A DNA stretch of 64,000 nucleotides from Rhodoligotrophos sp. CJ14 (lineage in GTDB: Bacteria > Pseudomonadota > Alphaproteobacteria > Rhizobiales > Im1), in contig NZ_CP133319.1 in NCBI RefSeq assembly GCF_038811545.1, forward strand, positions 3,554,001 through 3,618,000, written 5' to 3'. Numbering within the stretch: the stretch's first letter is position 1; each line of letters begins with the position of its first letter. Under the pieces are notes generated by a model that saw nothing but the letters and a program-made list of their open reading frames with translations, was not told the origin of the DNA and did no database searches. The translations under genes were made by a program, and so were the position numbers. Of this stretch, positions 814-57,567 are shown piece by piece.

Positions 814-1536
814 TTAGGCTGAAGCGCGCACGTCGTGGTTGTTGTTGCTGTTGTTGTCGTCAACGGGATCGCGCAGCACATAACCACGACCCCAGACCGT
901 TTCGATGTGGTGGCGTCCGCCGGTGGCTGCGGCAAGCTTCTTCCGCAGTTTGCAGACAAACACATCGATGATTTTCAGCTCAGGCTCGTCCATGCCGCCA
1001 TAGAGATGGTTCAGGAACATTTCCTTGGTCAGCGTGGTGCCTTTGCGCAGGCTGAGCAGCTCGAGCATCTGGTACTCTTTGCCGGTCAGGTGCACGCGCT
1101 GGGAATTCACCTCAACAGTCTTTGTGTCGAGGTTGACACGCAAGTCGCCGGTCTGAATGACGGATTGCGCGTGGCCTTTCGACCGCCGGACAACCGCATG
1201 GATGCGCGCGACCAGCTCGTCCTTGTGGAACGGCTTGGTCATATAGTCATCCGCTCCGACCCCAAGCCCGCGCACCTTGTCTTCAATGCCCGCGAGACCT
1301 GACAGAATAAGGATCGGAGTATTCACCCGGCTCACCCGCAGTGACTTGAGCACTTCATAGCCGCTCATGTCCGGCAGGTTAAGGTCCAGCAGAATAATGT
1401 CGTAATCGTACAATTTGCCGAGGTCGACACCTTCTTCGCCCAGATCGGTCGTGTACACATTGAAGCCTTCCGACTTCAACATGAGCTCGATGCTCTGCGC
1501 GGTCGCTGTATCGTCCTCGATCAGAAGGACTCTCAT
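814..1536 (-). CDS. ctrA: Cell-cycle response regulator CtrA
   Basis: CtrA is an OmpR-family master regulator that controls division, motility and, in Caulobacter, replication initiation. The receiver domain (residues 1-120) has the acidic pocket LIEDD, the phospho-acceptor Asp51 in [11 protein letters not shown], and the late Lys in [10 protein letters not shown]. The winged-helix DNA-binding domain (about 125-225) contains [14 protein letters not shown] and [10 protein letters not shown]. Its length of 240 aa is close to that of family members. GANTC methylation motifs lie at the start codon (1529-1533 and 1539-1543), and TTAA half-sites lie about 80-115 bp upstream, suggesting methylation-linked and autoregulatory control. 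Confidence 0.97.
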
Positions 1537-4817: not shown

Positions 4818-6050
4818 ATGGCGGATGCGTCACTGATCGAACGTGCTTGTGCCGTCGCGGCAGCGGGCCTGGATGTCCAAACTGCTGTGGCTGGCGCACG
4901 GATCGTGGTCGCCATGTCCGGCGGAGTGGACAGCTCGGTGGTCGCGGCCCTGGCGAAGCATCTCGGCTTTGAGGTGATCGGCATCACCCTCCAGCTATAT
5001 GATCATGGCGCCGCGGTGGAAAAGGCACGCAGCTGCTGTGCCGGTCGCGATATTCACGACGCCCGTTCAGTCGCCGAGCGGTTGGGCATTCCGCATTACG
5101 TTCTGGATTATGAAGCACGCTTCCGGGCCAGCGTCATGGATGAGTTCGCCGACAGCTACATGGCTGGGGAGACGCCGGTTCCCTGCATCCGCTGCAACCA
5201 GCAGGTAAAGTTTACGGACCTGTTGGGCTTTGCCCGCGACCTCGGCGCCGAGGCCCTGGCCACCGGCCACTATATTGCGAGTGCTGCCCGCGCCGACGGC
5301 TCCGGCCATCGCGATATGTATATGGCGGCTGATGGCGATCGCGATCAGAGCTATTTCCTGTTCACGACCACCCAGGCACAGCTTGATTTCTTACGTTTCC
5401 CCTTGGGCGGCTTGCGCAAGCCTGAGGTCAGAGCATTGGCGGAATATTTCGGTCTTTCCGTCGCTGACAAGCCCGACAGCCAGGATATTTGCTTCGTTCC
5501 CAATGGCAGTTACGTGTCGGTGATCGAGCGTCTGAGGCCCGATGCGCTGCAGCCTGGCGACATTGTGCATGTTGACGGACGTGTGCTCGGACGCCATCAG
5601 GGCATCGTAAATTATACGATTGGACAGCGTCGAGGATTGAACATCTCTAGCGGAGAGCCGCTCTATGTCGTAACTCTCGATCGGTCGGCGCACAAAGTCG
5701 TGGTCGGCCCCCGGGAGATGCTGGCCCGTAACCGGTTGATTCTACGGGATGTGAACTGGCTCGGAGACGAATCACTGATGGCGGCCTGTGCTGCGGAGCG
5801 TCCACTTCTCGTCCGGATTCGCTCGACACGGCCCCCGGTGCCGGCATGGTTGCAGGCGCGCGATGGGCAAATAGAGGTTGGTTTGGTGCAGGACGAATTT
5901 GGGGTATCACCCGGTCAGGCTTGTGTCTTTTACCAGCCGGGCACTTCGACCACCCGTGTTTTGGGTGGCGGATGGATCGAAGCAGCCCGTAAGGAAATTG
6001 TAGACAAGAGCGCCGAGTCGGGTCGATCTCGGCAAAGCGAGCCTGCGTGA
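4818..6050 (+). CDS. mnmA: tRNA 2-thiouridylase MnmA
   Basis: MnmA thiolates U34 of tRNA-Lys, -Glu and -Gln using ATP and relayed sulfur. The PP-loop [20 protein letters not shown] is present near residue 35. The first catalytic Cys lies in [14 protein letters not shown] and the second in [13 protein letters not shown], with ATGHYI and the conserved DQSYFLF between them. At 410 aa it is somewhat longer than many MnmA proteins because of an N-terminal leader. Its stop codon overlaps the next gene's possible GTG start. Confidence 0.95.
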
Positions 6051-6823
6051 AGGACGCCGTTATTCGGGTTCGGAGCGGTGAAAGGAAGGAGCAGCCTTTG
6101 GTCGCGAACAAGTTGGTCGACATGAAGGAGGACGCGGTCCGCCGTGCTTATGCGCGCTGGGCACCGGTCTACGATATGACCTTCGGTTTGATAGCGGATT
6201 ATGGCCGCGCCCGGACCGTTGATGCGATCAACCGACGAAGCGGCAGAGTGCTTGAGGTGGGCGTCGGCACGGGGATTTCACTGCCCCGCTATAAGCGCGA
6301 TCTGAAGATCACCGGTGTCGATCTCTCTCCGGAAATGCTCGCCCGAGCCCGCAGCCGGGTTGAGGAGAAAGGCCTCGACAATGTTGAGGCGCTCCGCGAG
6401 ATGGATGCAGCCGAGCTTGATTTCGAGGATGGGGCCTTCGACATCGTCGTCGCCATGTATGTGATGACGGTAGTGCCCGATCCGGAGAAGGTGATGCGCG
6501 AGCTCTCGCGGGTCTGCAAGCCGGGTGGCGAGGTGATCATTGTCAACCACTTCAGCCAGGATCACGGGTTGCGCGGCCATTTGGAGCGCGGAATGGCCCG
6601 CTTCGCCGAGGCGCTGGGTTGGCGGCCGGAATTTCCCCTGGATGCGATTTTGGTTTGTGACGATCTGCGGCTGGTGGCTGAGCGGCCGCTGCAGCCGCTT
6701 GGCCTGTTCACGATGCTGCGCTTCACCAAGACCGAGCCGGGCGCAGGCATGGTGATGCCCAAGCCCGGCATGAACAGCGTGACCGCCACCGGCAGGGTCC
6801 AGGTCCGTGACGTGCCGGCCTGA
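6047..6823 (+). CDS. pmtA: Class I SAM methyltransferase, probable phosphatidylethanolamine N-methyltransferase
   Basis: The product resembles the Rhodobacter-type PmtA that methylates phosphatidylethanolamine toward phosphatidylcholine at the membrane. It has [14 protein letters not shown], the SAM motif [41 protein letters not shown] and [15 protein letters not shown], then LGWRPEFP near the C terminus. The start is uncertain: GTG at 6047 overlaps the mnmA stop, while a TTG near 6098 or the ATG at 6121 would give an N terminus closer to the family, and AAGGAG lies just before the TTG. It is probably co-transcribed with mnmA. Confidence 0.75.
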
Positions 6824-6973: not shown

Positions 6974-7050
6974 GGCGGAGTAGCTCAGCTGGTTAGAGCA
7001 GCGGAATCATAATCCGCGTGTCGGGGGTTCAAGTCCCTCCTCCGCTACCA
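6974..7050 (+). tRNA. tRNA-Met (CAT)
   Basis: This is a complete 77-nt cloverleaf. The acceptor stem GGCGGAG pairs with CTCCGCT, with a G-U first pair. It has TAGCTCAGCTGGTTAGAGC in the D arm, anticodon stem-loop GCGGAATCATAATCCGC with anticodon CAT, T-arm GGGGGTTCAAGTCCCT, and an encoded CCA. It reads as elongator tRNA-Met; tRNA-Ile2 also has a CAT gene anticodon and cannot be formally excluded. The last 14 nt are part of the 29-bp repeat and belong to the attachment site, so integration left the tRNA intact. Confidence 0.93.
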
Positions 7051-8639
7051 CCTGCCTCCCCGCAAACTCGCGCTGTGGGGAACACATCATGACCGAGCAG
7101 TTGGCTTAAGCGTCCTTTGACCAGGATGTGGACGGGTTCGCCCGCCTTCGCCGGATTGATAGTCACTGACTCCACAAGTCGCCGGAATGCTTCAACGGCG
7201 CGGGTATCACCATCATTGAATGCTGCCGTGAGCCCTGCAGCCACAGCTTGAATGTCGCGCTGGTATTGCTGAACCAGACCAGGATGGAGCGACACAACCC
7301 GGTCGTCATCGTCCGATGCCGCCAAGTCCGCCTGGAGACGTTCCTTCTCGGTCTCAAGATCGTTAAGTCGCGCGGCGATGGTAGAGACTTTGACAGCCCC
7401 TTCGGCGATCGCGTCAACGATCCGTTCGAGTTGGCGCGTAACCTCGCCTAACCGGCGCTCGGTTTTATCGCGCTGTTTGCGAGCTGACGCACTCAGCCTG
7501 CGCATCTCCTCATTGTAGACACGCACATACTCTGCGAGCCCTTCCGGATCCTGCATCTTGTCAGCGAGGCCGGCGATCACGGTCGCCTGGATGTTGTCGA
7601 GATAGTATCTGCGGGTATTCGAGCAAGACCGGCTCTCCGCATAGCGGGAGCAGATAATGCGGACGCGCCCGTGATTCTTGTCGTGGACACGCATGCCGGA
7701 CCCACATGCACCACATCTTAGGAGCCCGGAAAGCAAGTGACGTGGCTTCTGCCTCTTTGCTGGAGCCATGTGAGTCCGATCAAGTTTACGCGCCCGCGCC
7801 GCGTCGAACGTCTCCTGATCCACAATTCGCAGATGCGGGACATCGGTGACAAGCCATTCGCTTTCTGGGTTCGGCCGGGAGATCCGCTTCCCCGTATCGG
7901 GATCTTTGACCATCCGGACCCGATTCCACACAAGACGACCGGCATATATGTCGTTGAGCAGGATACCGTGCCCGCGCGCCATGTTGCCGTTTATTGTGCT
8001 GGCGTTCCATCGGGCACCGCGTGGTGGCGGGACGCCTTCACTGTTTAGGCGGCCGGCGATGACCCTTGGGGTCGATCCTGCTACATATTCAGCGAAGATC
8101 CGGCGCACAACTGCGGCTTCAGAGTCGTCGATTGCGAGTTCACCTGGTTTGCCGGGGACAGGTTTATACCCGTATGCCTTCCCGCCGGCGTGCCGACCTT
8201 CTCTGACAACGCCGGTCTGACCGCGGCGCACCTTATGGGCCAGATCGGACAGGAACAGAGCGCCGACCAGCCCTCTGACCCCGATCTGAATTGCGTCGGC
8301 TGTGCCCTCATGGACAGCGACAACTTCCACTCCCAAAAACCGGAGTCGCTTCCAAATTCCAGCGAGGTCTTCCTGATCACGTGACAGTCGATCCAGGGCC
8401 TCGACTAGAACGACAGTGAACAGACCGGATCTGGCGTCTTGCATTAAGCGCTCGAGGCCGTCGCGGCCGAGCACAGAGGCACCCGATCTGGCCCGGTCGA
8501 CATACTCTCCGGCGACAGGAATCCCGTTTTTTTCGCAGTAGGTCCTACACAGGGCGAGTTGATCATCGATCGAGCGGTCCTTTTGGAGATCGCTCGAGAA
8601 GCGGGCGTAGAGCGCGGCAGTTTTAATTTTCATCGCCAT
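7029..8639 (-). CDS. Large serine recombinase (element integrase)
   Basis: This is a 536-aa large serine integrase. The resolvase domain has the catalytic motif YARFSSD with Ser15, then DRARSGASVLGRDGLERLM and VEALDRLSRDQEDLAGIWK. A recombinase domain follows (PRVIAGRLNSEGVPPPRGARW), a zinc ribbon (LLRCGACGSGMRV ... CSRYAESRSC) and a long coiled coil (about 390-450). The start is ATG 8639 or 8633; both overlap the end of a 54-aa upstream gene. It is the last gene of the leftward operon. Its stop codon (7029-7031) lies inside the tRNA-Met T-loop, so the final codons come from the attachment site and would change on excision. Confidence 0.92.
   Translation of the reverse strand: MAMKIKTAALYARFSSDLQKDRSIDDQLALCRTYCEKNGIPVAGEYVDRARSGASVLGRDGLERLMQDARSGLFTVVLVEALDRLSRDQEDLAGIWKRLRFLGVEVVAVHEGTADAIQIGVRGLVGALFLSDLAHKVRRGQTGVVREGRHAGGKAYGYKPVPGKPGELAIDDSEAAVVRRIFAEYVAGSTPRVIAGRLNSEGVPPPRGARWNASTINGNMARGHGILLNDIYAGRLVWNRVRMVKDPDTGKRISRPNPESEWLVTDVPHLRIVDQETFDAARARKLDRTHMAPAKRQKPRHLLSGLLRCGACGSGMRVHDKNHGRVRIICSRYAESRSCSNTRRYYLDNIQATVIAGLADKMQDPEGLAEYVRVYNEEMRRLSASARKQRDKTERRLGEVTRQLERIVDAIAEGAVKVSTIAARLNDLETEKERLQADLAASDDDDRVVSLHPGLVQQYQRDIQAVAAGLTAAFNDGDTRAVEAFRRLVESVTINPAKAGEPVHILVKGRLSQLLGHDVFPTARVCGEAGGSGGGT
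7037..7065 (+). repeat. attL: left copy of the 29-bp direct repeat
   Basis: Identical to 57696-57724. It covers tRNA-Met positions 64-77 plus 15 bp beyond the CCA. Mismatches begin immediately on both sides (7036 versus 57695, and 7066 versus 57725). The recombinase coding sequence reads through this copy on the minus strand. Confidence 0.9.
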
Positions 8640-8787
8640 GTACAAGGACAGGTGCGCCCGTTGGCTTTCGGGCCTGTGCCGCGAGATAATCGCGTTTTGC
8701 TGCCTGTCGCGCAAGCGCCCGGATCAGCTCGAGGATGTCCGGATCCATCCCAGCCCCGGCGGGTGTTATGCCGGGCGCTTTCCTCAT
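8623..8787 (-). CDS. Small 54-aa phage protein between ssb and recombinase
   Basis: The short frame begins at ATG 8787, which overlaps the ssb stop codon by one base (TGATG), and ends 17 nt inside the recombinase start. The product begins [18 protein letters not shown] and contains ELIRALARQAAKRDYLAAQ, a single charged helix. Tight coupling on both sides and a clean frame argue that it is real. I do not recognise a function; a recombination accessory role is only a positional guess. Confidence 0.55.
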   Translation of the reverse strand: MRKAPGITPAGAGMDPDILELIRALARQAAKRDYLAAQARKPTGAPVLVHGDEN

Positions 8788-9266
8788 CAGAACGGAACCT
8801 CATCATTGAGCTCAAGGGACGAGCTTGAGCCGAACGGTGCCTGGGCTGCGAAGCCTGCTGCCTGATCGGGATCCATGCCCCGGGCCGCCGGGTCATAACG
8901 GCCCCCATCATCGCGCTTGCTATCAAGCATTGTGAGCACGGCATTGAAGCCCTGCAGCACCACCTCGGTGGTGTAGCGGTCGCTGCCATCCTGATGCTGC
9001 CATTTGCGGGTCTGCAGCTGGCCTTCGATGTACACATACGAGCCTTTGCGGAGGTATTGCTCGGCGACCTTGGCCAGGGCTTCCGAGAACACGACCACCT
9101 GATGCCATTCGGTGCATTCCTTCCGCTCGCCTGTGGCGCGGTCCCGCCAATGCTCAGATGTGGCCAGGCTGAAAGAGGCGACCGGGCGGCCATCCTTGGT
9201 GTGGCGGATCTCCGGATCCTTGCCGAGGCGGCCGATAAGGGTCGCTTTGTTGAGTGAGCCCGCCAT
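8787..9266 (-). CDS. ssb: Single-stranded DNA-binding protein
   Basis: The OB-fold SSB coats single-stranded DNA during replication and recombination. The N terminus [20 protein letters not shown] is the family signature, followed by [34 protein letters not shown] and [16 protein letters not shown] flexible Gly/Ser/Ala-rich tail ends in the protein-interaction tip LNDEVPF. At 159 aa it is a normal length. ATG 9266 overlaps the stop of the upstream DUF2303 gene. Phage copies usually support phage replication. Confidence 0.93.
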
Positions 9267-10736: not shown

Positions 10737-11017
10737 GCCCCGCCTCGGGAGCGGGGGCGCGGCTGCAGAGCATCGAGGGGCTGCGAGCAGAGCGCGCCGC
10801 CATAGCCGCGCAGCGGGCAGACGATGGCACGGCCGGCATGAATGCCGCGGTCAATTCCGGTGATGACGGCGGGAGCATAGCCTTGCCCATCGAGCCGTGG
10901 CACGAGACATTCATCGCCAACGCGCCACTGGTGCTGGGCATCGCGCCACATCTGCACGGGTAGCCTCCCTCGATGGGAGCGCGCGTCGGCAAAGCTGATG
11001 ATCTCAGCGCTGGCCAT
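10733..11017 (-). CDS. Hypothetical phage protein
   Basis: The 94-aa product from ATG 11017 begins MASAEIISFADARSHRGRLP and has a beta-rich core (QWRVGDECLVPRLDGQGYAP). The ribosome site GAGGGG lies upstream; a longer in-frame start at 11062 would run through the preceding gene's end. The core resembles a small SH3-like barrel by eye. Function is unknown. Confidence 0.5.
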   Translation of the reverse strand: MASAEIISFADARSHRGRLPVQMWRDAQHQWRVGDECLVPRLDGQGYAPAVITGIDRGIHAGRAIVCPLRGYGGALCSQPLDALQPRPRSRGGA

Positions 11018-11021
11018 GCGG

Positions 11022-11369
11022 TTACCCCTCGAGCATGAAGGGGAGGCGCGGCTCCATGACAAGCGCGCGTTGGAAGGCTTCGTTTCGATGCTCGGTCACG
11101 ACTGCTTTGGGAATCGCAACCTGATCGAAGTCTGCCTGGCTGACGCGACCTCGCTTCACCGCAGCATCGAGGATGACGTCGGCCATAAAGTCGATCAGCA
11201 CCCCCTTTTTCCATTTGACCCGACCAATCCGGACGAAGGATCCCGGGTTCTCATACCGTGACTGGTGCGCTCGGTCATACGCTCGCGCAGCTTCCCACTG
11301 TTTCGCCGTCGTCCGCCCATCGGATTGAGCGAGTGTCGCGGTCGCGCTCAGTCCTGGAATGATGATCAT
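11022..11369 (-). CDS. Hypothetical phage protein, first gene of the leftward operon
   Basis: The 115-aa product has a hydrophobic start (MIIIPGLSATATLAQ) and then a helical, charged body (TTAKQWEAARAYDRAHQSRY, VKWKKGVLIDFMADVILDAA). It is the first gene after the operator-like repeats at 11.42 kb and so the most direct target of the repressor. No function is recognised. Confidence 0.5.
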   Translation of the reverse strand: MIIIPGLSATATLAQSDGRTTAKQWEAARAYDRAHQSRYENPGSFVRIGRVKWKKGVLIDFMADVILDAAVKRGRVSQADFDQVAIPKAVVTEHRNEAFQRALVMEPRLPFMLEG

Positions 11370-11410
11370 GGGTTCCTCTACTCATCCGTTAGCTGCTAAT
11401 GAGGAGGACT

Positions 11411-11452
11411 GTTACCGATAAATTGGTAGTTGATCAACTAACAAATTAGTAG
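11411..11452 (-). promoter_or_regulatory. OL-like operator and promoter for the leftward operon
   Basis: This holds the perfect 14-bp palindrome TAGTTGATCAACTA (11427-11440) inside a longer near-palindrome. ATAAATTGGTAG (11418-11429) is repeated exactly at 12577-12588 beside the repressor start, and a 10/12 copy lies at 11441-11452. On the minus strand TTGATC, 17 bp, TAACAG could be the -35 and -10 of the leftward promoter, overlapped by the operator. This is consistent with repressor control of the operon that ends in the integrase. Confidence 0.6.
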
Positions 11453-11549
11453 ACGAGGCACAAAAAGACGTCCCGACTTAGCGACTCGACTCTCGGTCCT
11501 TTTTCTGATTGAGAATCGGTCCAAACGGAGAACGGAGGCGCCAGGCATT

Positions 11550-11787: not shown

Positions 11788-12561
11788 TCACTCGCGCCCT
11801 GTCTGGACGATTACATGTACGCTCACCACCCTCTCAGATGGAAATCGAAGGATATACTTCTCCGCCTCGGGTTCGTCTGACGTCCAGTTCTCGCGTGGCT
11901 CGTACTGCTCTAAGATAAGCTCTTTCGAATTCCAAGAAATGAAGCGCTTAACAAAGGCCGCTGGCGGCTCACCTTCCTCGTCCATGATTTGAGCGACAAC
12001 AAAATCGCCCCGGCGAACGGGAAGGTTAGGGTTCACGAAGTGAACCTCACCAGCAAAGTACCTGGGCTCCATCGAGGTGCCGTATTGATAGACGCAATAT
12101 GCGTTCCGAACTCCCTCCAAAGATGGGGGTGCTAGCACATCCTTGAGTTTGTGACCGTTTAACACGAACCGGCCATCCGATCCGCCAATGGCGCCGCCAT
12201 AAAGCGGAATTCGTTGCCTCGGCAATCTCACAGGGCCGCCAGTTTCGGCATTCGGCTCGTGTTTTGGGTACGCTGCAGGTGTAGCAGCCGCGTCGTCGCT
12301 GCCCTCACCCAAGAGCCAATCCTCCGTGCGACCTAGTGCCCTGGCCAGTTCGCGCAACTTCTTCGGGCGAATGGAACGCCCCGCTTCAATTGCGCCTATA
12401 CCTTGCTGGCTCATTCCAACGCGCTCGGCTAGCTCGGGCTGGGAAAGCCCAAGTGCTTCCCGCGCTTCCTTGAGGCGCTTCGCGATTGGCGGCAACTCGA
12501 CTGGCTTGGTCATCAACATTTTGGTAGCAACCAGAGCACTATTCGTCTCAACTAAAAACAT
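11788..12561 (-). CDS. LexA/CI-type phage repressor (HTH-XRE + S24 peptidase)
   Basis: The XRE helix-turn-helix is RLKEAREALGLSQPELAERV followed by GMSQQGIGAIEAGRS (about residues 28-65). A linker and a C-terminal S24 peptidase fold follow, with the nucleophile Ser in YQYGTSMEPRYFAGE and the general-base Lys in AAFVKRFISW. This is the architecture of lambda CI and LexA-like repressors that self-cleave with RecA. It lies divergent from a Cro-like gene, with operator-like repeats on both sides. The start is uncertain: 12561, 12519 or 12513. It is probably the lysogeny repressor. Confidence 0.9.
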   Translation of the reverse strand: MFLVETNSALVATKMLMTKPVELPPIAKRLKEAREALGLSQPELAERVGMSQQGIGAIEAGRSIRPKKLRELARALGRTEDWLLGEGSDDAAATPAAYPKHEPNAETGGPVRLPRQRIPLYGGAIGGSDGRFVLNGHKLKDVLAPPSLEGVRNAYCVYQYGTSMEPRYFAGEVHFVNPNLPVRRGDFVVAQIMDEEGEPPAAFVKRFISWNSKELILEQYEPRENWTSDEPEAEKYILRFPSERVVSVHVIVQTGRE

Positions 12562-12570
12562 GGTTGAAAC

Positions 12571-12598
12571 TTACTCATAAATTGGTAGAACTGTGTTC
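12571..12598. promoter_or_regulatory. OR-like operator between repressor and Cro-like gene
   Basis: ATAAATTGGTAG (12577-12588) is an exact copy of the motif at 11418-11429. A weaker relative with TTTTGGTAG lies near 12519-12527, inside or just before the repressor start. The arrangement resembles the right operator of lambdoid phages. Confidence 0.55.
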
Positions 12599-12877
12599 AT
12601 GACGAACGCAGCGCTCCATCGCGCCGTCGAGCTGGTCGGGGGGCAGAGTCGCCTGGCTGAGCTGATCGGCACAACGCAATCTCACGTTTGGTATTGGCTC
12701 ACCCGCGCAAAACGCGGTGTGCCCGGCGAGTTCGTTTTGCGCATTGAGGAAGTGACTGGCGGGAGAGTGAGTAGACATGATCTCCGTCCAGACATCTATC
12801 CCCACAGGTCCGCTGGGAAACACAATAGCCCATCGATTGAGCCTGTCTCTGGTAACGTGCCGGAGGTTTTACCGTGA
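12599..12877 (+). CDS. Cro-like/YdaS-type helix-turn-helix protein
   Basis: This 92-aa protein has the pattern LHRAVELVGGQSRLAELIGTTQSHVWYWLTRAKRGVPGEF typical of YdaS/Cro-like regulators, where the HTH recognises operators and opposes the repressor (motif split here across residues 5-45). It is divergent from the repressor. The ATG at 12599 is chosen over a GTG two codons upstream. Its stop overlaps the next gene's GTG start (GTGA), so the two are coupled. Confidence 0.75.
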   Translation: MTNAALHRAVELVGGQSRLAELIGTTQSHVWYWLTRAKRGVPGEFVLRIEEVTGGRVSRHDLRPDIYPHRSAGKHNSPSIEPVSGNVPEVLP

Positions 12878-13356
12878 ACCCGGTTCGTCCGCGCCAAGCT
12901 GGTTCGTCGTTCGCGGCAATCGCGCTGATGCTGAAGCAGGTGGGCGGTGTCGATACCGTCGCCAGCTACACGGGCCGGAGGGAGTCTACGGTCTATCGAT
13001 GGACCGACCCTGACCAGAGCGACGGGATACCTTTCAACATCGTATGCCAGATTTCCGAGCATTTCGGGATCACAACAGCGGCCGAACATCTGGCAATTCG
13101 CTCGGGCGGCTGGTTCTTGCCTAACCCGGCCATCGAACATGACGATGAGCTCGCCAGTGCTGCTGCCCAGGCCGCAGCAGAATATGCCGACCTCATCCAT
13201 CGATACGCAAAGGCACTTGACCCAAAGAGCGAAGCCGGCCGGCAGGTCTCGCCGCGTGAGGCGGGCGAAATGGTCACCGGCATCGACGAGCTATATCGGG
13301 CGCTCGCTGTCCTGCGCGCTCTGGCTTTGGCCATCAGTGAGCGGGGCAACAGATGA
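12874..13356 (+). CDS. Phage regulatory protein (CII/CP76-like)
   Basis: The 160-aa product has an N-terminal HTH-like segment (LKQVGGVDTVASYTGRRES, TVYRWTDPD) and an all-helical C terminus (IDELYRALAVLRALALAIS). This resembles phage regulatory proteins of the CII/CP76 kind found just after cro. It begins with GTG overlapping the Cro-like stop. Function is inferred from fold and place only. Confidence 0.5.
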   Translation: MNPVRPRQAGSSFAAIALMLKQVGGVDTVASYTGRRESTVYRWTDPDQSDGIPFNIVCQISEHFGITTAAEHLAIRSGGWFLPNPAIEHDDELASAAAQAAAEYADLIHRYAKALDPKSEAGRQVSPREAGEMVTGIDELYRALAVLRALALAISERGNR

Positions 13357-13381
13357 CGGCTCTTCTTTGGTCGGCAGCCGA

Positions 13382-13398
13382 GACTCGGGGTGTGACTC
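13382..13398 (+). promoter_or_regulatory. Paired GANTC sites before the GcrA-like gene
   Basis: Two GACTC motifs at 13382-13386 and 13394-13398 lie directly before the ATG at 13399. GANTC is the CcrM methylation site, and GcrA in Caulobacter acts at methylated GANTC promoters. The pair is seen in sequence; a regulatory role is inferred. Confidence 0.4.
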
Positions 13399-13986
13399 AT
13401 GCCAGCACGTAACCCAATCGATGATCATGTGCTGCGGCAACTGGTGGCAGAAAATGCCCCCTACAAGGTCATGGTGAAACGGTTGCGAACCAGCCAGGAT
13501 TTCATCAAGCGGCGCATCGTAGAGCTTGGGCTAGCAAAGCCTGCCGATACGGCGCGGGCTGTGCGCAACGCAAAAGTGCGCGAGCTCGCCGCCCGCGGCG
13601 TCAGCTGCTCTGTTGCCGCCGAGATCTTGGGATTGTCGTCCTCGAGCCTGCGTAAACTGGCCCGCGAGCTGAGTGTCACATTTTGGACAGGCGAGCGCGT
13701 TATCAGGCAAGCACGAAGGATTTTCCCCCAGGCTGTTGTACAGCCTCCACTCTGTGCAGCCGCCGCACTCCTCACCCCGCCCGTGTCCTCCCTCCCAATC
13801 GCGGGTGGGGTGAGCTTGTTGGAGCTGCGGGATTACGGCATGTGCCGGTGGCCCTTGGGGGAGGATGCCCGCGGATATGTCTTCTGCGGCGAGGCCTCTG
13901 AGCCGTCGCGGCCCTATTGTGCCCAGCACTGCGCCATCGCGTTCGAGCCTGGGCCCCCACCTCCGCTGTTGGGGAGGGCCGCCTAA
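13399..13986 (+). CDS. GcrA-like cell-cycle regulator encoded by the phage
   Basis: GcrA is an alphaproteobacterial sigma-70 co-regulator linked to GANTC methylation. The C-terminal part (about 139-184) carries the family signature SLLELRDYGMCRWPLGED, YVFCGEASE and RPYCAQHCAIAFEP. The N-terminal 100 residues have two HTH-like segments (TSQDFIKRRIVELGLAKPAD; CSVAAEILGLSSSSLRKLA) rather than the usual short GcrA N terminus. It lies between regulators and a DNA methyltransferase, and overlaps the latter's start. It is likely a phage-borne regulator that redirects host or phage transcription. Confidence 0.65.
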   Translation: MPARNPIDDHVLRQLVAENAPYKVMVKRLRTSQDFIKRRIVELGLAKPADTARAVRNAKVRELAARGVSCSVAAEILGLSSSSLRKLARELSVTFWTGERVIRQARRIFPQAVVQPPLCAAAALLTPPVSSLPIAGGVSLLELRDYGMCRWPLGEDARGYVFCGEASEPSRPYCAQHCAIAFEPGPPPPLLGRAA

Positions 13987-14675
13987 TGGGCACGAGGCAA
14001 AACACCTCTTCGGCTGTGATGCAGCAGCGAAGCGAGCCGCATGACTCGCTGGATGATTTCCCAACGCCGCCTTGGGCCACACGAGCCCTGATCGAGCATG
14101 TCCTGTTGCCCAATCTGCGCGTGCCCGATCCGCGTAAGCATATGCGCGAGAAGCTCACCTGTTGGGAGCCCGCCTGCAATCGCGGCCACATGGCGAGGCC
14201 GCTGGCGGAGTATTTCAGCAGGGTTCATGCCAGCGACATTCATGATTATCGGCAGGAATGGCCTGGCCAAGAGCGGCTGGTCGATTTCCTCTTCAACTTT
14301 GCCGAGACGTTATGCCTTGAGCCTTGCGGGGTTGATTGGGTCATTACCAATCCGCCCTTTCGCCTGGCCGAGCAATTCATTCACAGAGCCTGGCGCGTCA
14401 CTGGCGTGAGTGGCGTGGCCATGCTCGTGCGCACGTCATTTCTCGAGGGGGTAGGGCGGTATGAAAACCTGTTCAAGGTTCGGCCCCCGTCCATCGTGGC
14501 GCAGTTTGTCGAGCGGGTTCCGATGGTGAAGGGGCGGCTCACCGCCACCGGCTCCACCGCCACTTCTTATTGCTGGCTCGTCTGGATGACGGGCGAGCTC
14601 GGCACCCGGCTCGAGTGGATCCCGCCTTGCCGGAAGCAGCTAGAACGGTCGGATGATTACGAGGTGGCGGCATGA
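13986..14675 (+). CDS. Phage DNA methyltransferase (NPPF type)
   Basis: The 229-aa product has CWEPACNRGHMARPLAEYF as SAM-binding motif I, HASDIHDY after it, and the catalytic motif DWVITNPPFRLAEQFI, indicating an N6-adenine or N4-cytosine DNA methyltransferase. The N-terminal DSLDDFPTPPWATRALIEH is common in phage enzymes of this group. It lacks the DPPY of CcrM, so GANTC specificity should not be assumed. The ATG shares its first base with the TAA of the GcrA-like gene. No partner endonuclease is seen, so it is an orphan methylase. Confidence 0.75.
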   Translation: MGTRQNTSSAVMQQRSEPHDSLDDFPTPPWATRALIEHVLLPNLRVPDPRKHMREKLTCWEPACNRGHMARPLAEYFSRVHASDIHDYRQEWPGQERLVDFLFNFAETLCLEPCGVDWVITNPPFRLAEQFIHRAWRVTGVSGVAMLVRTSFLEGVGRYENLFKVRPPSIVAQFVERVPMVKGRLTATGSTATSYCWLVWMTGELGTRLEWIPPCRKQLERSDDYEVAA

Positions 14676-14893
14676 GCGCTTCACCGCCCTTCATCTGTGA
14701 CGCGCCAGGGTGCGGGCAATACGCCTCGATTGGCGAGGGTTGGTCGGGCAAGGCCGGCAGGCGCGGCCGGTGGTTCTGCGGCCCGCATTATCGCGAGCTG
14801 CAGGCCAGGCGCGCGGCCGATGAGGCCGCCCGGGCAACTGGGCAAACGAGATCAGCTCCGGCTGAAGTTCAAAGACGGCTCGAGGGGCTATGA
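14672..14893 (+). CDS. Small zinc-finger-like protein
   Basis: This 73-aa protein has Cys/His spacing FICDAPGCGQYASIGEGW ... WFCGPHYREL, a probable single zinc site, followed by a charged helix. It overlaps both the methyltransferase stop and the primase start as ATGA junctions. It may be a DNA-binding accessory protein; no specific function is recognised. Confidence 0.6.
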   Translation: MSASPPFICDAPGCGQYASIGEGWSGKAGRRGRWFCGPHYRELQARRAADEAARATGQTRSAPAEVQRRLEGL

Positions 14894-17643
14894 CAGAGCA
14901 ACATGGGGATGATCGCCGCGACGGCTTGCTTGCCGCCGCGCTGGACTATGCGCGCCGGGGATGGCCGGTGTTCCCGTGCTCGCCCTCGCAGACCAAGGGC
15001 GAGAGCAAGCAGCCGCTGACGCCCAAATCCACATCTGGCCAGAAGGATGGCGGGCTTTATCTCGCCACCACCGATGAGGCGCAGATTAGAGCCTGGTGGA
15101 ACCGCTTCCCCAAGGCACTGATCGGCATGCCCACGGGCGAACGCGCCGGGGTGTTCGTGGTCGATCTCGACCCGCGCAAGTTCCCGGCTGACGACATGCT
15201 GGCGAGCCTGGCCTCGTTCTGCGGTGGAGTGCTGCCGCCATGCCCGGTGGTGCGCACGCAATCGGGCGGGCTGCATCTGTGGTTTGCCTATCCCGAGATG
15301 CCGGCAGGCGAGCGCCTGGGCAACCGGGCGAGCCTGTTTTCCAAACTGGAGAACGTGGACGCTGCCATTGCCGGCCATGTCGATATCCGCGGTGAAGGCG
15401 GTTATGTGATCGTGCCGCCCTCGGTGATGGTGGATGGCGCGGCCTATCTCTGGGAGCAATCGCCCGATGATGGGCCAATCCCCGCAGCCCCGCCGCGGCT
15501 GTTGGATCTGGTGTTGCGCCGCGGTGAGTTTGCCCGAGGCGCGCCACATCATGCAACGCCGATCGCCAGTGGCACCGAGCCACAGGCCAAGGTGGATGAG
15601 GCGGTGCGGCGCTATGCGCTGGCAGCGCTCGACGGTGAGCTTGAGGAACTGGCATCCTGCCCCAAGGGGCGGCGCGGCTTTACCCTCAACAAATGTGGCT
15701 ATGTGCTTGGCCAGCTGGTTGCGGCGGGGGCGCTTTCCCATGCCATCGTCGTTGCGGGCCTGAGAGATGCCTGCGCGCGCAACGGTCTGCCGGCGGCAGA
15801 CGGCTGGAAGGTGGTCGATGCCAATATTGAACGCTCTGTGCGCGATGGCATGGCCTCGCCCCGTGACCTTTCCGACATAGAGCGCAAGGCGCGAGCTCGG
15901 GCCGAAGGTTTTGGGCGGCCTCGTCGTGATGAACCGCCACCGCCTGACCCCGATGACTATCCCGACCCCGCAGCCCCGTATGATGATGGCTGGGCTGATG
16001 ATGGTGGCGCGGGCGCCCCGCCTGGCGGTGGCAGTGATGACATCGACCCGGAAAAGCTCGGCCGTTGCGCGGAGGAGCCGCAGAACGACACCGGCAACGG
16101 CCGGCGGCTGCTGATCTGGTTCGGGGATGACCTGCTGCAGGTGCGCGATGTTGGCTGGCATGCCTGGGCCGGCAGCCATTGGGAGGTCAAAGGCGGTGAC
16201 GAATATGTCACCCGGCGAGCGCAGGAGGTCGCCGAGCGCATCGCCTATGAGGCCGACCTGATCAGCGCGACACCCTCCGAGCGATCCTTGCTCGAGGCGG
16301 CCAAGTCGATCCGCAAAAAGCCGGAGAAAGACCGCACCGAGGAAGAGAGTAACCTGCTGAAATCGGCCGCTGAGGTGCAGGACGCGGTTGAGAAGCGGCA
16401 GGCTGCCCGACGGCGGTTCGCTATCTCCTCGGGCAATAACTCGCGCATCGTCGGCATGATCACCCAGGCGCTGCCGCATAAGACCGTGGCGCCCGATGAT
16501 CTCGACCCGGACCCGCTCAAGTTCAATGTGCTGAACGGCACGCTGGTGTTCAGGAAGGTCGAGGACCCGGAAGGGCCGGATCTGGATGAACCGCGCTGGG
16601 ACATGACGGTTGAGCTGCAGCCGCATGACCGGGCCGACCTCATCACCAAGATGGCGCCGGTGCGCTATGACAGGGGCGCGACCTGCCCGAAATGGACAGC
16701 CTTCCTTGATCGCTTTTTGCCCGATGCGGCGGTGCGCGAGTTCGTGCAGGTCTATTCCGGCTATGGGCTCACCGGCCTGACCGGTGAGCAGGTGCTGGTG
16801 TTCATGTATGGCACCGGCGCCAATGGTAAGAGCACCTTCATCGAAGCCATCTGCCGGATGCTGGGGGCCTATGCGCAATCGCTCAATCCGGAGGCGGTGA
16901 CTGGCATCGGCCAGCGGCGGGGCGATCAGGCAACGCCGGAGCTTGCCCGGCTTACGGGCGCGCGACTGGTGCGCGTTTCCGAGCTGCCGCGCGGTGAACC
17001 CTTGCGCGAAGGCCTGATCAAGGCCCTGACCGGTGGAGAGCCAACGCAGGTGCGCCACCTGCATAAGGGCTTCTTCGACATGTATCCGACCTTCAAGGCG
17101 GTGATGTCGGGCAATGACCTGCCGCAGGTGGGCGGTGTCGACCATGGCATATGGCGACGATTGCGGCTGATCCCCTGGAACGTGACCATTCCCGATGCCG
17201 AGCGCCGGCCTATGGAACAGGTGCTGGCGGAATTCGAGGCGGAACGGTCCGGCATCCTGAACTGGCTCATCGAGGGCCTGCGCAAATACATGACGCACGG
17301 GCTCCATGCGCCGCCAGAGGTCATGGCGGCAACGCTCGCCTATCGCGAGGAAATGGACCCTGTCGGCGGCTTCATCAATGACTGCGTCGAGCGAGCACCG
17401 CCTGGCGTGAGCGTGTCGGTGACGGCGCGGGAGATGTATGAGGCCTTCGTTGCCTGGTGCCATGCCAATGCGGTGCGGCCATGGAAGGAAGCGACCTTCG
17501 GACGGGTGATGCCGCAGAAGGGCTTCACCAAGACCAATGAGCGAATTAGGCGCTATCTCGACGTGCGGCTGCACGATGTCCCGGCGCGCGATGATGGCCA
17601 ATCTGCGCCGCAGCCGCCGCATCCGGCGGATGATGACCCATGA
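14890..17643 (+). CDS. Primase-polymerase/SF3 helicase replication protein
   Basis: This 917-aa protein initiates phage replication. The N-terminal prim-pol domain (about 1-215) shows VFVVDLDPRKFP with the DxD metal site, VVRTQSGGLHLWFAYPE and RGEGGYVIVPPS. A linker rich in Asp and Pro follows (about 335-385). The C-terminal D5/P4-family SF3 helicase has Walker A FMYGTGANGKSTFIEAI (about 640-650) and the sensor-like VMSGNDLPQVGGVDHGIWRR. Direct adjacency to the GCGAGGGTT repeats suggests that they form its origin. It starts in an overlap with the zinc-finger gene. Confidence 0.9.
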   Translation: MTEQHGDDRRDGLLAAALDYARRGWPVFPCSPSQTKGESKQPLTPKSTSGQKDGGLYLATTDEAQIRAWWNRFPKALIGMPTGERAGVFVVDLDPRKFPADDMLASLASFCGGVLPPCPVVRTQSGGLHLWFAYPEMPAGERLGNRASLFSKLENVDAAIAGHVDIRGEGGYVIVPPSVMVDGAAYLWEQSPDDGPIPAAPPRLLDLVLRRGEFARGAPHHATPIASGTEPQAKVDEAVRRYALAALDGELEELASCPKGRRGFTLNKCGYVLGQLVAAGALSHAIVVAGLRDACARNGLPAADGWKVVDANIERSVRDGMASPRDLSDIERKARARAEGFGRPRRDEPPPPDPDDYPDPAAPYDDGWADDGGAGAPPGGGSDDIDPEKLGRCAEEPQNDTGNGRRLLIWFGDDLLQVRDVGWHAWAGSHWEVKGGDEYVTRRAQEVAERIAYEADLISATPSERSLLEAAKSIRKKPEKDRTEEESNLLKSAAEVQDAVEKRQAARRRFAISSGNNSRIVGMITQALPHKTVAPDDLDPDPLKFNVLNGTLVFRKVEDPEGPDLDEPRWDMTVELQPHDRADLITKMAPVRYDRGATCPKWTAFLDRFLPDAAVREFVQVYSGYGLTGLTGEQVLVFMYGTGANGKSTFIEAICRMLGAYAQSLNPEAVTGIGQRRGDQATPELARLTGARLVRVSELPRGEPLREGLIKALTGGEPTQVRHLHKGFFDMYPTFKAVMSGNDLPQVGGVDHGIWRRLRLIPWNVTIPDAERRPMEQVLAEFEAERSGILNWLIEGLRKYMTHGLHAPPEVMAATLAYREEMDPVGGFINDCVERAPPGVSVSVTAREMYEAFVAWCHANAVRPWKEATFGRVMPQKGFTKTNERIRRYLDVRLHDVPARDDGQSAPQPPHPADDDP

Positions 17644-55880: not shown

Positions 55881-55971
55881 TCGAGCCGCGAGGCGTCGAG
55901 CGCGCGGCGCTGCGATTGACTTGCTATGGTGTCGACCGTAGTCCTTTGGATCCTTAGAGAGGGAGCGCGTG

Positions 55972-57567
55972 ATGAGCGACGTCACCAATGAGTTATCAAG
56001 AATTTTGCAGTCCAACGGCGGCGCTCCCTTTTTATTCGTGGGCTCGGGATTCTCGAGAAGATATCTTGGGTCAGATGATTGGAAGGGTCTGCTTCGTCGG
56101 TTCTGCGCAGAAATTCGCGAGTTTGATTACTACTTTGCATCGACCGATGGCGATCTGCCAATGACAGCATCATTAATTGCCAGGGACTTTCATGACCTTT
56201 GGTGGAACTCAGCTAAATACGAAGAATCCAGAGAGAAATTCAGAGAAACGTCGACGAGCGTCCAGTCTGCGCTAAAGAATGAGATCGCTCAGTTTTTATC
56301 TCAACTTCCCTTAGAGGGTTTGCCCGATGAGCAAATTCAAAGAGAGATATCTGCATTAAAGAATTTGAACGTGGACGGAATAATAACGACCAATTGGGAT
56401 CTGCTTCTCGAAGAATTATTTCCAGGTTACCGAGTTTTCATAGGGCAGGAAGAGTTATTATTTTCAAACCCGCAAGCGATAGCAGAAATCTATAAAATCC
56501 ATGGTTGCGCAAGCAGGCCGAAATCTTTGATTTTAACCAGTGAAGATTACCATGACTTCCATGAGAAAAACCCATATTTAGCAGCAAAGCTAATAACGTT
56601 ATTTATTGAACATCCAATTATTTTTATAGGATACGCTGTGCAGGATCCGCATATTCAGAGGATAATATTTTCAATTGCCTCGTGTTTGGCTAACGATAAG
56701 TTGGAAAAATTTTGCGAGAACCTGGTGTTCGTTAGGAGGTCGCACGGGCGATCAAGTTCGATTCAGAAGATTACCTTTAGCCACGCCGGACGAAGCGTGA
56801 CTGCTACCGTGCTGGAAGTGGACGATTTCTGTGAGGTGTATGCGGCAATTGACGCTGGCAAGCGGAAAATACCGGCGCGAATCCTGAGATACTGTAAGGA
56901 ACAGATGTATGAACTAGTTAAATCCGCTGAGCCAGAGAAAAAGATCGCCGTTGTAGATATCGACGAGTTGGATGCAAGCGAGCAGGTCGAATTTGTTGTG
57001 GGAATTGGGCTGGCGAAAAATCATCGCCAGCAACAGAGTGAGATCGCGTCAGAAGGTCAAAGCAACTTGGCTCGAAGCGGTTACAGAGGGGTTTCAATTG
57101 CCGATTTGTTTGATGATTTGCCCCGGGAAAGATCCACGTTTGACGCTGACGAGTTGCTAAGGGTTGCGTTCCCCTCATTTGCCCGTTCGAATGCCACATA
57201 CATCCCAGTGTTCAGATATCTTCGTGCAGCCGGAGTCGATGATAGCGAGAAGCTGGTCTGCTCTGAGTATAAGGATGCAGCCAGGGTCATAGAAAAGATC
57301 AAGAAGAGGGGATATCGCGTAAGAGGCTACAGATCGCAATATAACTCAAATTGGAGCGATAAAACCACCACGGATATCCTGTCAGGGCTTGATCCAGAAA
57401 GGGTAACGCTCATTCTACCTTTCCAGTCACCTATGAAAGTAGAGAGAGAGCCTCTCAGAAAATTTTTGTTGGAAAATTCTGGGTCATCATTTCGAGATCC
57501 GTATAGATCCTATTATAAAAAGCTAGCGTGCTATTATGATTATTTAGCGTTTGGCTTTGAATTATGA
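55972..57567 (+). CDS. SIR2-domain protein, candidate anti-phage effector
   Basis: This is a 531-aa protein (from ATG 55972; GTG 55969 possible). Residues about 15-235 form a SIR2-like NAD-binding fold: FLFVGSGFSRRYLGSDDW, the catalytic Asn in IITTNWDLLLEEL, the catalytic His in IYKIHGCASRPKSLIL, and IIFIGYAVQDPHIQRI. The C-terminal 290 residues match no family I know. Related SIR2 effectors (Thoeris ThsA, DSR, others) degrade NAD+ to abort infection. It stands alone at the element's right end and is clearly more A/T-rich than neighbours. GAGGGAG precedes the start. Confidence 0.8.
   Translation: MSDVTNELSRILQSNGGAPFLFVGSGFSRRYLGSDDWKGLLRRFCAEIREFDYYFASTDGDLPMTASLIARDFHDLWWNSAKYEESREKFRETSTSVQSALKNEIAQFLSQLPLEGLPDEQIQREISALKNLNVDGIITTNWDLLLEELFPGYRVFIGQEELLFSNPQAIAEIYKIHGCASRPKSLILTSEDYHDFHEKNPYLAAKLITLFIEHPIIFIGYAVQDPHIQRIIFSIASCLANDKLEKFCENLVFVRRSHGRSSSIQKITFSHAGRSVTATVLEVDDFCEVYAAIDAGKRKIPARILRYCKEQMYELVKSAEPEKKIAVVDIDELDASEQVEFVVGIGLAKNHRQQQSEIASEGQSNLARSGYRGVSIADLFDDLPRERSTFDADELLRVAFPSFARSNATYIPVFRYLRAAGVDDSEKLVCSEYKDAARVIEKIKKRGYRVRGYRSQYNSNWSDKTTTDILSGLDPERVTLILPFQSPMKVEREPLRKFLLENSGSSFRDPYRSYYKKLACYYDYLAFGFEL

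Follow-up and report, generated by a model that had tools for sequence, protein, structure and literature searches.

A prophage GcrA-like protein with tandem helix-turn-helix domains is encoded next to a probable GANTC methylase

Gene organization of the early region

The window analysed here is a 64,000-nucleotide stretch of the 4.8-Mb chromosome of Rhodoligotrophos sp. CJ14, and a temperate prophage spans roughly 7-48 kb of it. The left part of the prophage contains a serine integrase gene (7029-8714, minus strand), ssb and then a CI-type repressor gene. Rightward, the Cro/YdaS-like, CII-like, GcrA-like, methylase, 73-aa protein and primase genes follow one another (Table 1), with the terminase, portal and capsid genes coming after the primase. 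The genes between 12593 and 17643 overlap or nearly abut, the largest gap being the one of about 42 bp just before the GcrA-like ATG, so the GcrA-like and methylase genes appear to belong to one early operon.

All three genomes of the genus that we examined, the present one and two others, have a GcrA-like homologue in the same prophage context. The gene order of the two sister prophages, referred to as L062 and L063, is ssb, CII-like, GcrA-like, 73-aa protein and primase. The small protein encoded between the methylase and the primase is common to all three prophages and belongs to no known family.

Table 1 Features of the early region (positions in the window)
Feature	Position	Strand	Description
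CI-type prophage repressor	11788..12561	-	phrog_4 transcriptional repressor, E 7.5e-29; divergent from the module
Cro/YdaS-like regulator	12593..12877	+	PF15943 E 2.1e-22, phrog_35 E 2.7e-24; opens the rightward early operon
CII-like transcriptional activator	12874..13356	+	phrog_101 CII-like activator, E 7.4e-13; kept in both sister prophages
Two GACTC (GANTC) sites	13382-13386 and 13394-13398	+	12 bp apart, in the gap of about 42 bp
GcrA-like regulator	13399..13986	+	195 aa; tandem HTH plus SID
HTH1	13423..13527 (residues 9-43)	+	Extra N-terminal helix-turn-helix that canonical GcrA lacks; three AlphaFold helices, aligned extra block
HTH2	13567..13677 (residues 57-93)	+	GcrA DBD position; recognition helix diverged
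GcrA sigma-interacting domain (SID)	13786..13950 (residues 130-184)	+	PF07750; C149, C163, C174, H177
DNA adenine methyltransferase	13986..14675	+	NPPF motif; phrog_799 E 4e-56; predicted specificity GANTC
73-aa Cys-containing protein	14672..14893	+	51% and 61% identity in the two sister prophages
Prim-Pol / D5 primase-helicase	14890..17643	+	PF09250, PF08706, phrog_1156 E 3.4e-173; replication module begins here

The GcrA-like protein combines a conserved SID with a divergent N-terminus

The Pfam GcrA model PF07750 matches the GcrA-like protein with 43.1 bits (cut-off 26.9), and the match is confined to the SID segment. A SID profile built in this analysis gives 57.9 bits on the same domain, and the sequence relatives of the protein in the PDB are the GcrA SID and GcrA-RNAP entries 5yix and 7ye1. 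Three cysteines, one tyrosine and one histidine are invariant across 12 aligned SIDs, and the invariant Cys/His residues possibly form a metal site. The protein resembles alphaproteobacterial GcrA (Caulobacter) in this C-terminal SID with a Cys/Trp/Pro...FCG...YCxxH frame, in the variable linker and in having an HTH at the position of the GcrA DNA-binding domain (DBD). These features support its membership of the GcrA family through the sigma-70-binding domain, and the GcrA C-terminal signature reported in the first-pass annotation is thereby confirmed. The different N-terminus described there is confirmed as well, since the protein scores 37 bits on the NCBIfam GcrA equivalog NF050816, whose cut-off is 280.

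In the AlphaFold model, residues 9-43 and about 48-90 form two three-helix HTHs with pLDDT mostly over 90. The model is of low confidence beyond the HTHs, with pLDDT of about 40-50 in the SID region, and the SID assignment thus rests on the sequence. A PDB fold search with the model gave no match at E <= 0.001, and the best match in a viral library was a phage GcrA (E 1.4e-4).

Within HTH2, the recognition helix reads SSSSLRKLARELSV in the window protein versus TRNAVIGKVHRLGL, with 1 of 14 positions conserved, and the TRNAVIGKxHRLGL helix that marks the N-terminal DBD of GcrA family members is missing. On a GcrA-DBD profile, for which 2000 shuffles gave a maximum of 9.8 bits, HTH2 scores 9.3 bits in the window protein, 1.8 in L062 and 28.4 in L063. 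The recognition helix is thus gone in the window protein and in L062 by this profile, while the second HTH of L063 is plainly a GcrA DBD (TRNQVIGRAFRMGV) that retains TRNQVIG, a partly kept recognition helix. The full-length homologues in these sister prophages are 48-51% (L062) and 32-38% (L063) identical. Given the L063 score, HTH2 is best read as a descendant of the GcrA DBD, and the whole protein as a GcrA with an HTH added in front and a changed GANTC-reading helix. Such a change of the recognition helix would favour a different DNA target. Reading of m6A by the protein, which the first-pass annotation had implied, is therefore possible but disfavoured.

HTH1 was also considered as a second copy of the GcrA DBD, for which the profile gives no support (-1.4 bits). 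Two HTHs ahead of a SID are also found in Brevundimonas phage Bajun (L011) and in viral contig L098. Several HTH-like segments also precede the SID of a protein encoded near a GANTC-type methylase in another locus (L401:2189-2986).

The neighbouring methylase is homologous to a characterized GANTC methylase

Homologues of the methylase begin at ATG 13986, and TTG 13917 was therefore rejected as its start; the overlap with the GcrA-like gene noted earlier accordingly amounts to one base shared between stop and start (TAATG). The methylase aligns end to end with PhiLM21_p027, the one DNA methylase in the phiLM21 annotation, with 68.3% identity over 98%. PhiLM21_p027 was experimentally found to methylate GANTC and is unlike the host CcrM in sequence, and expression of this enzyme and of relatives confers protection from HinfI (PMC5537653, PMC7139368). 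Like these phage-borne mimics of CcrM, the window methylase has an NPPF motif and is encoded upstream of replication genes, with the primase downstream. A Pfam search with the window methylase gave no match; the protein therefore lacks the beta-class PF01555 domain, which together with the CcrM C-terminal domain characterizes CcrM orthologues. Given its 68% identity to an enzyme of known specificity, it very probably methylates GANTC as well and mimics CcrM, in agreement with the proposed link between this gene and GANTC.

In L063, a frameshift near residue 197 interrupts the GANTC-type methylase (10868-11541), with the homology continuing in another frame; it may be either natural or a sequencing error. 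The same slot in L062 (reverse complement, 8074-8874) is occupied by a 266-aa beta-class methylase (PF01555) that is unrelated to the window methylase and has CcrM as its best PDB match.

The gene pair recurs across phages

Using three methylase queries, we fetched 222 viral loci, which were reduced to 129 non-redundant ones. A SID (GcrA-like) protein is encoded within about 4 kb of the methylase in 15 of the 129, and the other 114 have none within this distance. The GcrA-like gene lies directly upstream of the methylase gene in three other viral contigs, with stop and start overlapping as TGATG in two (L147 and L331) and separated by 10 bp in the third (L148); one additional ORF separates the two genes in L063. 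Control loci were anchored on the phiLM21 helicase, because the window primase gave one viral locus only, and SIDs were found nearby in 3 of 81, all from one lineage. A degenerate-DNA SID search of the viral contigs returned 10 stretches, two of which were GcrA-like by motif check and both already included in the analysis. The pairing therefore recurs across phages but is optional.

This optional character would be expected if the pair were two independent early genes that are neighbours by chance, the methylase serving replication or protection and the regulator something else. Most methylase-bearing phages have no GcrA-like neighbour, and most of the phage GcrA-like loci that we examined, including L007-L011, have no methylase of the window type nearby. 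Moreover, phiLM21 and two Rhizobium phages carry this methylase type beside replication genes without a GcrA; in phiLM21 no GcrA-like gene occurs within the 10 kb read, whereas in the window it lies directly upstream of the methylase gene. However, in several divergent phages the two genes lie side by side on the same strand with overlapping stop and start codons, which argues against mere coincidence, and we regard the absence of any functional link as unlikely.

The GANTC sites upstream of the GcrA-like gene are not conserved

The two GACTC sites lie at -17 and -5 relative to ATG 13399, the second one abutting the ATG, and thus fall within 17 bp of the start codon as initially described. In the prophage core, GANTC is found about once every 838 bp. 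The window has 111 sites, about 2.8-fold fewer than the 316 expected from dinucleotide shuffles, and the host is similarly poor in GANTC (1 per 759 bp in 20 stretches of 20 kb). Owing to this scarcity, two sites in one gap are uncommon: the probability that one named 42-43-bp gap contains at least two is about 0.001, and among all 43-bp segments of the host and the window about 0.12-0.35% contain that many. The window holds four GANTC pairs within 12 bp. The arrangement is thus unusual for a single named gap, but the gap was picked after the fact.

No GANTC is present within 580 bp before the GcrA-like start in L063 or within 180 bp before it in L062. In a first set of methylase-linked loci, 5 of 8 had GANTC near the GcrA-like start (0.89 expected). 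In a second set, for which the interval was fixed beforehand, the count was zero in 7 new loci (1.04 expected). With the window left out, the two sets together give 4 of 14 loci against 1.83 expected (p about 0.1). Since the enrichment failed in the second set, the idea of GANTC as a conserved element at this position was dropped. Intergenic enrichment of GANTC was not seen in the prophage core either, where 5 of 43 sites fall in the 10% of the sequence that is intergenic by our own rough gene calls. No sigma-70-like promoter match was found at 12400-15000, and a GcrA-type promoter at the sites would need a leaderless message, because they abut the start codon. Taken together, the absence from the sisters, the lack of a promoter match and the failed replication mean that no case can be made for the two sites as a control element, and the regulatory role first ascribed to them is not supported.

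These results also bear on the epigenetic switch implied by the first-pass annotation, in which the GcrA-like protein reads m6A-GANTC made by the neighbouring methylase or the host CcrM, including at its own two sites. In favour of such a switch are the probable specificity of the methylase, the position of the sites and the fit of the 13382 site to the extended GcrA motif YGAKTCK (PMC7987155) on the minus strand (CGAGTCT). The GcrA target mipZ likewise has two juxtaposed GANTC sites (PMC3667746), and the L063 homologue partly keeps the reading helix. The changed recognition helix of the window protein and of L062, together with the unconserved sites, nevertheless makes this reading quite improbable; the missing promoter match and the leaderless message that it would require also weigh against it.

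Discussion

We favour, with slightly better than even confidence, a model in which the phage encodes a sigma-70 co-activator that has its own DNA specificity and whose gene is transcribed together with that of a methylase mimicking CcrM. The domains, the gene order, the homology of the methylase to a characterized enzyme and the recurrence of the pair can be read from the sequence; the docking on sigma, the activation and the part played by methylation are deduced from the known mechanisms of GcrA and CcrM (reviewed in PMC7403470). In the model, the SID would dock on region 2 of the host primary sigma factor, as in host GcrA, and the tandem HTHs would direct the holoenzyme to promoters of the phage or to selected promoters of the host. 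The methylase, which may also be co-translated with the regulator, would copy CcrM and methylate GANTC on replicating phage DNA, so that the phage methylation state would become independent of the cell-cycle-limited host CcrM. The tie to replication or methylation state that had been proposed for the module is thus plausible for the methylase; it is unproven for the regulator, whose recognition helix is lost and whose upstream sites are unconserved.

An equally doubtful relative of the epigenetic switch is a GcrA/CcrM circuit in portable form, carried by the phage, in which the overlapping methylase gene supplies the enzyme that writes GANTC methylation and the GcrA-like protein, equipped with a DNA-binding head of its own, works on sigma-70 at mark-dependent promoters. 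If true, phage transcription would be timed by the phage's own replication and methylation. More doubtful still is a competitor of host GcrA, whose SID would occupy sigma region 2, displace GcrA and uncouple the host cell cycle in lytic growth with the HTHs playing a minor part: the conserved SID, the loss of the GcrA DNA-reading helix, the presence of a host GcrA and the proposal that phiCbK gp222 alters the host replicative state (PMC3556154) are in its favour, but the retention of both HTHs in the three prophages speaks for specific DNA binding.

As a co-activator encoded with a CcrM mimic, the pair would have the same two functions as the epigenetic cell-cycle pair of the host. GcrA is widespread among the alphaproteobacteria, the class to which the host belongs, and the host has a canonical GcrA (180 bits), separate from the phage protein, and a CcrM (L066, E 1.6e-158 to PDB 6pbd). 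The host genes are far apart, whereas the phage genes are adjacent and the phage methylase lacks PF01555. The window protein differs from alphaproteobacterial GcrA by its extra HTH, its unconserved recognition helix, its sub-cut-off NCBIfam score and its location in a phage operon.

Both halves of the pair are of known kinds, phage GcrA homologues having been reported in 2012 (PMC3556154; see also PMC6630229) and phage GANTC methylases in 2014. A phage-borne SID is likewise present in phiCbK gp222, Agrobacterium phage Atu_ph08 gp5, Brevundimonas phage Bajun and Rhizobium phage RHph_X2_24; of these, phiCbK gp222, unlike the window protein, is simply a full-length homologue of GcrA. One table of phiLM21-like prophage genes counts the GcrA annotation five times (PMC12429752). 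In the parts of the GcrA, prophage and methyltransferase literature that we covered, we found no discussion of the gene pair or of the tandem-HTH form, and both the two-headed activator and its association with the methylase look new. Together with L063, which keeps the reading helix, and L062, which has a different methylase, the overlapping pair makes a small test system for asking whether phages borrow the methylation clock of the host or merely its sigma-docking surface.

Other genes of the window also deserve mention. A 532-aa protein (55969-57567) strongly matches PDC-S25, a candidate defence family of PADLOC, with a ThsA/SIR2-like part. Immediately beyond the integrase gene of the prophage, a QueC-like gene is followed by a methyltransferase gene with a partial PADLOC mad2 match (4818-6823), and in the product of 814-1536 (minus strand) the N-terminal part weakly matches SduA/DUF4263 defence models.
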